A stretch of 64,000 nucleotides of DNA from Polytrichum commune (Eukaryota > Streptophyta > Polytrichopsida > Polytrichales > Polytrichaceae). Made by a program: the position numbers and the translations under genes. The notes below the pieces were generated by a model. That model saw only the letters and a program-made list of their open reading frames with translations, was not told the DNA's origin and did no database searches. Position 1 is the stretch's first letter. Each line of letters starts with the position of its first letter. Shown one piece after another: positions 47,863 through 52,026 of the stretch. The stretch spans positions 24,120,001 through 24,184,000 of the forward strand of contig OX485804.1 of assembly GCA_950295325.1 (NCBI GenBank), given 5' to 3'.

Positions 47863-47870
47863 GCCCATTT

Positions 47871-48930
47871 CCCGGGTACGCAATTCCCGTATTATATGGT
47901 CATGATTATAATCACTTATAATGCGTTTTAGTCCAATATTGAGTGATACAATTTGTTTTAATGTAGGAAACCCTTGTAGCCCTTCTAACAAGGAATCCAA
48001 AAATGTAATTATATATAGGAAATTAATATATTTTGAAGCATATAATTGCATTAAAAACCTAATTATATGATTTTTTAATACATGTATCATAGGTCAAACT
48101 ACCCAACTTTTTGGACTTTTTAATAAAATTTTAACATTGTGAATGACTTATAATTTCAATGGGAGGCAACTATTCGTGGCTTATAATTCTAATTGGAGGC
48201 AAATATTCGTGTGGATTTTTTAAAATTATGTATAGGCAACTTACTGGTCTAACTGTTGGGATAGAAAACTAATGATTTGTGTTAGGATACATTTGAGGTA
48301 TGTATTTTTAAGACTATATACATCATATGGTGCCCTGACTACTCAAGGGTATCATGGGGTATTTCAAAATATCATGGGTTCCCGGTTTAGGGTTAGGGCT
48401 TAGGTTTGCGGCTTCTACATATTCGCTTTGAAGCTTTTGTGTTCGGTTTTGGAGCCTTTGTGTCGTCGCTTTGGAGTGTGCTTGTGCTCATTTGGGAGGG
48501 TCACCCTTGGCTTAAACAAACACATGGATTGTGAGATGAAGCGCAGAGGCTCATGTAGTGGAGGTAGAGATAGGGAGAAGGAATATGTTACACCTGTAAT
48601 TGCCACAACTCCTTCCAAAAGAGGGAGACCTCGAAAGGACCCTCTATCATTTGTGAATACTAATCCGACATCTACATTGAATACCCCTCTTAGACGCTCT
48701 ACAAAGTTAAAAAACTAGGTGTTTCAATTGTTTATATACGTTGGAGTTTTTTTTGGTAATAAATATGCAACCCAACTTTTTTTTCATCTCATTTTATTTA
48801 ATTTGGTCTTCACCCAACTTTTTGATCATTTTAATTTGATATAATTTGATATAATTTTTACAAAAGCCGTCCTCTAAGCCGTTTTTAATACGATGCCCCC
48901 TGCGTATAATATGGGAGTTGCGTACCCGGG
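47871..48930. mobile_element. 1,060-bp TIR element with 8-bp TSD carrying an AT-hook ORF
   Basis: The inverted ends are 27 bases with two internal mismatches, both starting CCCGGGTACGCAA. GCCCATTT occurs directly outside each end (47,863-47,870 and 48,931-48,938), a perfect 8-bp duplication as made by hAT-type transposases. The TIR sequence itself does not start with the usual CA of hAT. The interior is AT-rich except for about 48,370-48,720, which holds the ORF described separately. No transposase domain is present, so it would move only in trans. Confidence 0.8.
48428..48718 (+). CDS. Small AT-hook protein ORF (96 codons)
   Basis: The only sizeable frame inside the 1,060-bp TIR element. 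Near residue 65 it encodes TPSKRGRPRKDP, whose GRP core flanked by basic residues is the AT-hook motif that binds the minor groove of AT-rich DNA. The upstream part is cysteine- and arginine-rich, followed by RDREKEYVTPV; the end is short and basic (RRSTKLKN). A nuclear, DNA-binding role is inferred from the AT-hook only; no other domain is visible. An in-frame internal Met (residue 38, MKRRGSCSG) could also be the start. It may be a captured host-gene fragment or an accessory gene of the element. Confidence 0.5.
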   Translation: MKLLCSVLEPLCRRFGVCLCSFGRVTLGLNKHMDCEMKRRGSCSGGRDREKEYVTPVIATTPSKRGRPRKDPLSFVNTNPTSTLNTPLRRSTKLKN

Positions 48931-49231
48931 GCCCATTTCTACATAATCATCACCACACTCACCGGTGGGTTGCACATACTTTGATGTAATAGCATTTGTG
49001 TTCAATTGAGGGAGTTCTATTCTTTGAAACCGTGTATCTTAGGCTGCTCTATACCGGACCAAGAGTCACAACCATGAAAATCTACGGGCCCTTCAATATC
49101 ATTGCAAGGCCATATTGTGGGAAATAGAACAAAAATTAAGCAACTGATGGACCCCCAAGCTTAAGTGAAGTGAGGTGGATCATTTTGAGGGACTGTAAAC
49201 ATGTTTTGTGGATTATCCAAAATAGTAGGTA

Positions 49232-50166: not shown

Positions 50167-51018
50167 GTCTAGGACCTCATTATGGGAATATAATCTTGGA
50201 GGGGTCACTCTCGTACTTTAGAAAACTTCATGAGAACATTTTAAAGTTGCAACCTACAAATTATAACACATGTACTTGTAACAAAGTTGAAATTATATAT
50301 TAAACTCCATGGTATAAATAAATTAAGGTGTTTATAGATTGATCATCTTAGGAAAGTTTTAAAACTAACATACTATAGGGTTCAGTAGGGTGGAGGATAA
50401 AAATAATATACATTATGGCCTCACACTATGGATGAACACCATTGGATGACATCTCATGAATGTCTTTTGATAATTGGGTGTAATGTGTTGAGTTAGATGT
50501 GGGAAGGGCTCCCAATAGGTTTGCATATTTTATTTAGCTTTGTGAGTTCCAGAAAGGTTTGCAAGAGCTCTTGGAAGTTTTTAATGATTATGCGAACTCC
50601 AAGCATCTTGCAAACTTGGCAAATGTTGATGGTTGATTGTTGAAGGTTGGACAATAGGTGCATGTGCATAGTTGCGCTCCTCAAGTTTGTCCATCCCAAG
50701 CTTCATCTTTCATGCTTTCAATTCTTTGCTTGCTTGGTATATTGGTAGGGTTTTGAATTCTTGTTGTGATTTCTCATAGTTTTTTTGGAGCACTGTCTAC
50801 ATAGAGGAAGGGGGCGACGTCAACATGAAGCGTTTGTACAAGTGATAGCAACTATGACTCGAGGCACTTGGTTCTAGTGAGGTTCTTGGTCACAAACTAG
50901 GTTTGTAATGTCTTTGAAGTTGAAAGTGTTGTCCCTTCATGATGCCTATGCTAGTCCAAAACTTATTGGATATTGCGAATGTGCTAAAGAGCGACACATA
51001 TGCACAACGCAAACCACT
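50167..51018. other. Gene-free stretch
   Basis: No recognisable gene or repeat. Confidence 0.35.
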
Positions 51019-52026
51019 ACTTGAAGTAATCATATTGTAGTTAAGCATTTTCAATTCTTTGATATTGAGAGTAAATGCAAGAATAATTGCAAGCTTGAGG
51101 GGCTCCAAAGACTTTCTTCATATGCATGTGATCTACCATTAGTTGATCCGAACCTTGAATTCACAAAATGCATGCGTATGGTTGACCTAGATTTTGTTTC
51201 CAACTCCCAACAAACTCTAGATTGCATTGGAGAGAAGGCCGAAATCCAAAATCTTACCCCTCTTGATGACTTTGACCAAGCATTGCCTCCACCTATTGGT
51301 TCTAGAGTTAGTGGTAAGAGCATGACCATGTGGCATCTGACCTAAAGTCCACATTGGTGAGTGCTGAGGTTATGGTTGGATACTTGTTGGCCAAAGAGAA
51401 AATTAAGTTATGAAACTAATAACCCTGGAGGGTCACCAATGGCACTTGAGATCTTTGGACCACAATTCTATGGGTGTAGTGAGGGTGTATTGTGTGGAGT
51501 GTTGTAAAGAGTTTGGATCCATCACCAAGACCATTTCAAGAACACAATCCACAACCTCTTGGCCAATTTCAAACAATATCACCTCATGTCTAACATACAT
51601 ATTCAAAGTTGGTGTGAAGAAAAGGAGTTGAGTTTAGTGATCATCCCCAATCAAAAGCCTCTAAAGGGTAGTCTATTGTCTTGACAACAATTGACCATTA
51701 AGCACTCATGGTTGAAGGCATATAGATACTAAGTGCAGTGAATGAAACTATTGCCAATGAGGAAAAAACCATTTGATCTGGTTGGGGATCTTGTATTGAA
51801 GGAAGTCCAGTCATGTTGGGGACCAAGAAAACAATCAAGGGGCATTGTGGGTGACATCAAGTGCGTAATATGTGAACAACCAATATCTGCAAAAGGTGAC
51901 TTAGTTAAAGAAGAGAACACGATATTCAATATTTTGAGAGAGTGGGATCCTCTCAAAATAATATTGGCCATTTGGACACCTAAAAGTCATGTTAGGTTGA
52001 TAAATACTAGATTAAACTTCAGACGT
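51019..52026 (+). other. Possible decayed coding region, unidentified
   Basis: The plus frame is open for about 105 codons to TAA at about 51,342, encoding LVDPNLEFTKCMRMVDLDFV and ALPPPIGSRVSGKS. Nearby frames at about 51,410-51,500 (GSPMALEIFGPQFYG) and 51,742-52,056 (a CVICEQ motif) also look protein-like but are broken by stops. This resembles an old transposon or processed-gene remnant. I recognise no family. The last frame runs into the foldback structure at 52,027. Confidence 0.3.

Follow-up and report, generated by a model that had tools for sequence, protein, structure and literature searches.

The 1,060-bp element at positions 47871-48930 of the window (the whole 64,000-nucleotide stretch of Polytrichum commune DNA analysed here, contig OX485804.1, positions 24,120,001 to 24,184,000 of the forward strand) is very probably a non-autonomous derivative of a larger cut-and-paste transposon, produced by internal deletion from a parent of the type found at C1:72491641-72502740. 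This reading is supported by the ends that the two elements share, the presence of both sides of the deletion junction in a single 11.1-kb element, a coding tail that stays in frame, 8-bp target duplications and the youth of the copies. The small AT-hook frame inside the element is, to judge from its larger relatives, the C terminus of the transposase that the family itself encodes. The puzzle posed by this frame is largely solved by a deletion derivative carrying a relic of its parent's enzyme.

A preliminary description had placed an inverted-repeat element with an 8-bp duplication at 47863-48938, and these coordinates proved correct: GCCCATTT occupies 47863-47870 and, letter for letter, 48931-48938. 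Between the two copies of the duplication lie the left inverted end (47871-47896, plus strand), whose motif occurs 629 times in the genome, and the right inverted end (48905-48930, minus strand), which pairs with the left one. The ends are inverted as described; their length is 26 nt rather than 27, with 24 of the 26 positions complementary. Similarly, the 96-codon AT-hook frame is present, but it requires a TTG start (48428-48718), and initiation at ATG leaves 64 codons and a stop (48524-48718, plus strand). No Pfam match was obtained within the 64-codon frame. Its core, KRGRPRKDP (48617-48643, plus strand), we take to be an AT-hook. At 48428-48490 of the window there is a short repeat unit around GCTTTGGAGCCTTTGTGT. 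The number of units is not constant from one copy to another, and they add to the length of the TTG frame, which reaches 110 codons in copy L009.

The genome searched comprises 408 Mb, with seven large contigs among 64. A LEAFY homologue at L102:880-1827 reads YLFDLYEQC, in which the aspartate presumably represents the moss type, the Arabidopsis protein having H at that position; a moss with seven chromosomes is therefore the probable host. An exact 18-base end motif of the element was found 315 times in forward and 314 times in reverse orientation (629 in total), while the control, the same pattern read backwards, was found in neither; such a frequency greatly exceeds chance. A DNA search with the element gave at least 51 matching stretches (from the best 40 of 794 candidates scored); by hand count, at least 32 of the matches cover nearly the whole element, namely the window's own copy and 31 others at 86-97% identity. 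Further copies with these ends and 8-bp duplications thus exist in number. Among 28 full-length copies in which both flanks were compared, the duplication is perfect in 25; of the exceptions, L042 agrees at 6 of 8 positions, L052 matches only after a one-base shift of the register, and the right end of L050 was not found. One duplication, TGTTTTCC, is common to L002 (C3:32366567-32367625) and L003 (C3:32172759-32173817), so the 25 perfect cases represent 24 separate insertions. L002 and L003 lie on opposite strands 0.2 Mb apart, and an inverted segmental duplication of one original insertion is the likely explanation. L074 (C3:54479681-54480307) and L075 (C3:54483196-54483822), also on opposite strands and separated by 4 kb, both have GTG in place of ATG and are probably an inverted duplication as well.

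Divergence from the consensus ranges from 0.5 to 2.7% per copy (29 copies), which indicates that the short-element family moved recently. On C1, at least 31 end pairs were matched by eye among the matches listed: 26 span 464-632 bp, one spans 718 bp and four span 1101-1152 bp. One 9.1-kb end pair, C1:60621587-60630711, was considered as an autonomous element and rejected, since it resolved into two separate elements, of which the first type is short and the other carries the AT-hook. In the short copies L105, L106 and L107, element positions 1-330 are joined to 887-1060, which leaves no frame, and the perfect 8-bp duplications around them show that the AT-hook frame is not required for movement.

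A protein search with the 64 residues returned 114 matching stretches in the genome. By hand count, 82 of these span 62-64 residues at 87% identity or more and 73 of the 82 contain no stop; the near-complete set includes the parent-type locus L021, L020, the 1.88-kb L104 and a 718-bp element. Ten divergent matches (54-76% identical) were fetched, and in all ten the segment sits in the right end of the family, with the DNA shared with the window element starting at element position 638-642 in nine. Transposase-like sequence lies upstream of the AT-hook segment in eight of the ten divergent loci, as well as in L020 and L021; it is missing from L014, an 854-bp element, and none was seen in L018. 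In L010, L011 and L012 the frame continues upstream into further coding sequence, and the upstream piece, used as a query, led to better copies and to one long open frame. The AT-hook core RGRP is present in L010, L014, L018, L020 and L021 and absent from the C7 protein described below. Continuity of the frame with transposase sequence in the larger relatives, together with the constant right-end location, identifies it as the tail of the transposase.

The left-half pattern of the element has 84 matches in the genome, one of which, at C1:72502149, lies a short distance upstream of L021, a transposase copy in decay. The parent-type element at this place (C1:72491641-72502740) measures 11.1 kb, carries both family ends and is flanked by GGTCAAGT and GATCAAGT, which agree at 7 of 8 positions. 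Its left end corresponds to the left part of the window element (47871-48511, plus strand), with 93.5% identity over element positions 1-611 and 98.4% over 578-641. Its right end matches element positions 638-1060 at 85%, a segment that includes the 3' noncoding part and right end at 48719-48930 (plus strand). The deletion junction, TTGGC|TTAAAC, falls between 48511 and 48512 (plus strand) with a single base of microhomology, and approximately 9.95 kb present in the 11.1-kb element is absent here. Frame comparison assigns the codons at 48512-48523 (plus strand; LNKH) to the last in-frame transposase codons before the ATG. Where L020 reads ALNKHMDCEMKRRG, the window element keeps LNKHMDCEMKRRG, and its frame is unbroken across the junction. 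The right end of L020 is nearer to that of the window element (96%, versus 85% for the 11.1-kb element); its left end was not found within 14 kb. L104, at 1.88 kb and with a duplication matching at 8 of 8 positions (TATAAAAC), we read as a second deletion derivative formed by the same process.

The parent-type gene consists of an N-terminal exon with a ZF-HD-type zinc finger, a C2H2-like finger recognised by eye, a presumed catalytic core and the AT-hook tail, and it is decayed by several stops and frame breaks. Its first coding exon (L021:5553-6539, minus strand, in C1:72491400-72500800) matches the ZF-HD_dimer model PF04770 with an E value of 9.5e-10. Zinc-finger homeodomain proteins of plants also contain the ZF-HD_dimer domain, and either these proteins or the window-clade transposase may have lent it to the other. 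Among the candidates listed, neither the exact parent nor an intact transposase with CCCGGGTACGC ends was found, and two window-clade transposase pieces used as genome queries disclosed no intact copy.

More complete members of the transposase family were encountered elsewhere in the genome. At C7:23871793-23875359 lies a frame of 1,189 codons whose tail, SGRRATRLVNC, is related to that of the window frame, LRRSTRLKN, and aligns with it. A complete element of 6.0 kb surrounds the C7 frame; its ends read CCCGGGGTGGCAAC and its duplication CTCAGCTC. On C1 there is a copy at 99.1% DNA identity, with a single stop in the matched frame and the duplication GTAACGAG. The N-terminal exon of the C7 element aligns with the parent-type exon (E 2e-23); outside the parent type, PF04770 reached only an E value of 0.23 in the L025 exon, which belongs to the C7 element, and had no match in L013. 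With the 1,189-residue protein as query, at least 42 stretches at no fewer than 37 loci were obtained (from scoring of the best 39 among 242 candidates; the loci were tallied by hand). The matched stretch is free of stops at 18 of the 37 loci, the query's own included, and open frames extend up to 1,549 codons. The longest, on C3, lies in a complete element of 5.8 kb (L024:1807-7608) that has CTCGGGGGGGTCACTCC as its ends and AATCTAGA as its duplication. L108 and L109 are two copies of one large element, 99.5% identical, with a common border CCTCGGGGGGGG and unrelated flanks. For this pair a single border was found, and for L023 and L110 no ends were found; the larger elements with both ends found have CYCGGG-type ends and 8-bp duplications. 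The large elements L024, L108/L109 and L023/L110 look recently active, and the copy pairs that are 99.1-99.5% alike, some with long open frames, suggest recent activity of the transposase family. Within the window itself, about 2 kb downstream of the short element, positions 50917-51819 (plus strand) contain an N-terminal stretch, now decayed, from a larger second branch of this transposase family, resembling L023 and L024.

An alignment of 14 family members revealed invariant blocks at 416-420 (AEDET), 534-544, 579-591 and 766-773. Invariant in all 14 are the candidate catalytic residues D418, D538 (or D540) and E771, the last within a D-x-x-E-x-F block, and we infer that the parent would be a DDE-type cut-and-paste transposon. 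At E values up to 10, none of the 14 members matched a transposase model in Pfam, including those for KDZ (Zisupton/Dileera/Kyakuja), Mutator and PIF/Harbinger, in a search whose HMMER filters drop most weak matches; the sole hits were Thioredoxin_4 (E 0.038) and Cas_Cas1 (E 0.14), in one member each. The 14-member profile found no relevant structure in the PDB, its one hit being a designed coiled coil (E 0.93), and a scan of viral contigs and prokaryote genomes with the transposase alignment disclosed no relative. Among the openly licensed papers listed in literature searches, no title or opening of an abstract describes a plant transposon family of this kind, and the available portion of an account of Physcomitrium transposons mentions Mariner-like DNA transposons and no family like this one (PMC7466625).

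In order to evaluate the AT-hook frame, we scored 69 copies, comprising 68 of the 82 near-complete protein matches and L059, whose match is split; L085 among them lies in the 1.88-kb element. Of the 69 frames, 55 are strictly intact and 14 are broken through a lost start, a gained stop, a lost stop or a frameshift, so the expectation of a frame kept open across copies holds for most copies and fails in the remainder. Divergence from the consensus is 1.33% in the frame, compared with 1.49% in the left noncoding part, 1.06% just upstream and 1.93% on the right (29 full-length copies). With six length variants set aside, the remaining 63 copies, all of exact length, show 127 changes of amino acid, 36 silent changes and 3 stops. 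A neutral simulation, whose rates were set for each cytosine context from the noncoding part, predicts 121, 38 and 7.4, respectively; three or fewer stops occurred in 6% of simulation runs. Changes common to several copies comprise 28 amino-acid and 5 silent ones. Among private changes, by contrast, 26 of 62 are silent (36 amino-acid), a share of 0.42 where 0.26 is expected (p 0.006), and all distinct changes taken together give 31 silent and 64 amino-acid (p 0.10). Purifying selection on the frame finds no echo in the changes of all copies, which are neutral-like, and some in the private ones, which lean silent. The private lean depends on the choice of copies (p 0.06 for 29 DNA-ranked copies, p 0.38 for 40 protein-ranked copies). 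Ranking by protein similarity was rejected as its cause, the lean sitting in the DNA-ranked copies and not in the protein-ranked ones, and this weak lean is unexplained. When larger, decaying relatives are compared with the consensus frame, the amino-acid to silent ratios (0.47-1.24) are too noisy for use. The open frames mainly reflect the youth of the copies. Strict neutrality is not proven, weak constraint on the frame is possible, and these substitution tests would hardly reveal selection confined to a few source copies.

Two roles had been suggested for the frame, a captured host fragment and an accessory protein, and neither is favored here. That the frame was taken from a host AT-hook gene would accord with the frequent occurrence of AT-hook motifs in host proteins, and only part of the 114 stretches were placed in elements by reading their DNA. 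Against this stand the right-end location at all ten divergent loci and the continuation of the frame into transposase, which rule out host-gene capture for the copies read and render it extremely improbable overall. An accessory role draws no support from changes that, over all copies, fit the neutral expectation, nor from the 14 broken frames. A more specific version, in which the 64-residue peptide would act as a repressor and, as is said of the KP protein of internally deleted P elements, curb transposition by binding to subterminal DNA in related elements, is unlikely, yet deserves consideration: most frames are intact, the parent's left part, the expected site of a promoter, is retained, private changes lean silent, stops are few (3 against 7.4), and internally deleted P elements can encode repressors (PMC7776569, PMC12393704). 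The same neutral fit and the same broken frames argue against it, as does the predominance of amino-acid changes among the shared ones; moreover, P repressors retain the N-terminal DNA-binding domain (PMC12393704), whereas the window element has the C-terminal tail only.

The affiliation of the parent raises a separate set of alternatives. The 8-bp duplications are typical of hAT elements and would suit an ordinary hAT-derived MITE; however, the 14 aligned frames lack a hAT or other Pfam transposase match at E values up to 10, no hAT dimerisation domain or other hAT model was found in the scanned transposases, and the ends differ from those of ordinary hAT elements, in agreement with the preliminary description. 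A hAT derivation is accordingly very unlikely. A deep branch of the P superfamily, as opposed to a separate superfamily, is a more serious candidate, falling only a little short of an even chance. In PMC7776569, P transposase is described with D230, D303 and E531 in a split RNase H fold with a GTP-binding insertion, and with 8-bp duplications. The 8-bp duplications, the invariant D418, D538 and E771 with a second gap of 233 residues (228 between D303 and E531 of P) and the D-x-x-E-x-F block at the last residue would all fit such a branch. In contrast, the first gap is 120 residues compared with 73 in P, no THAP domain or P-element Pfam model was detected in the proteins scanned, the 14-member profile finds no P transposase among solved structures, and the ends are unlike P ends. 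A genome search with the P-element model PF21787 gave no match, and its control was likewise without a match. The spacing of the candidate catalytic residues recalls P transposase as a resemblance and a lead only, with membership unproven. That the family may be undescribed had been suspected beforehand, and the failure of every Pfam model to recognise its transposase agrees with this. We tentatively propose, with distinctly less than even confidence, an undescribed plant superfamily with transposases of about 1,180-1,550 codons, AEDET, GH-SDGD-RRR, QD--H--KKL-NP and D-CE-F blocks, N-terminal zinc fingers in the window clade (one of them ZF-HD), CYCGGG-type ends and 8-bp duplications, of which an element with an AT-hook tail occupies roughly 80 places and possibly serves as a KP-like brake on its own family.

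For the deletion derivative that we prefer, the following course of events may be envisaged. A cut-and-paste DNA transposon similar to C1:72491641-72502740 would have undergone one internal deletion, which removed nearly the whole transposase gene (approximately 9.95 kb) and fused the first 641 bases of the parent to its last coding part. The resulting copy would have retained the stop codon and the 3' region, together with an open frame encoding the AT-hook tail. Copy number and duplications suggest that the copies were then moved in trans by a transposase of the same family acting on their ends. In the full enzyme the AT-hook presumably helps to hold the subterminal DNA, which is AT-rich. 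The frame of the short element would be mainly a passive relic, drifting after insertion.

As this case illustrates, short transposons can contain coding frames left over from the enzyme of their parent, and longer copies that share the right end settle the origin of such a frame. The larger yield is the enzyme family itself, with complete elements, exact duplications and long open frames that no Pfam model finds; annotation based on such models would consequently miss the family together with the many short elements derived from it. Should the fold be P-like, P-type transposition would extend into a land plant in a new form, and if it is not, the family would represent a further superfamily.

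Among known systems, the P superfamily (P, THAP9) has in common with the parent the 8-bp duplications, a candidate D/D/E set with a long second gap and, in the window clade, a zinc-finger N terminus. The parent differs in having ZF-HD-like and C2H2-like fingers instead of THAP, in its length of 1,180-1,550 codons and in the lack of a sequence match to P models or structures. Plant MITEs of the hAT, Mutator and PIF/Harbinger families are also short, with inverted ends, a target duplication, many copies and no complete transposase; unlike them, the window element retains a transposase-derived frame, and its parent's transposase has no Pfam match to these families. The frameless relatives of 464-632 bp are nearer to the usual MITE than the window element is. 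For the origin of the latter, KP and other internally deleted P elements of Drosophila are the best parallel, sharing approximately its size class, one internal deletion, both ends, 8-bp duplications and a high copy number. The truncated transposase frame is left open in both, the KP protein having 207 residues (PMC7776569), and deleted P copies can out-compete full-length ones (PMC12393704). The two differ in that the ends and transposase described here are not recognisably P by sequence, and in the portion of the enzyme that survived, which in KP is the N-terminal DNA-binding part and in the window element the C-terminal AT-hook tail.
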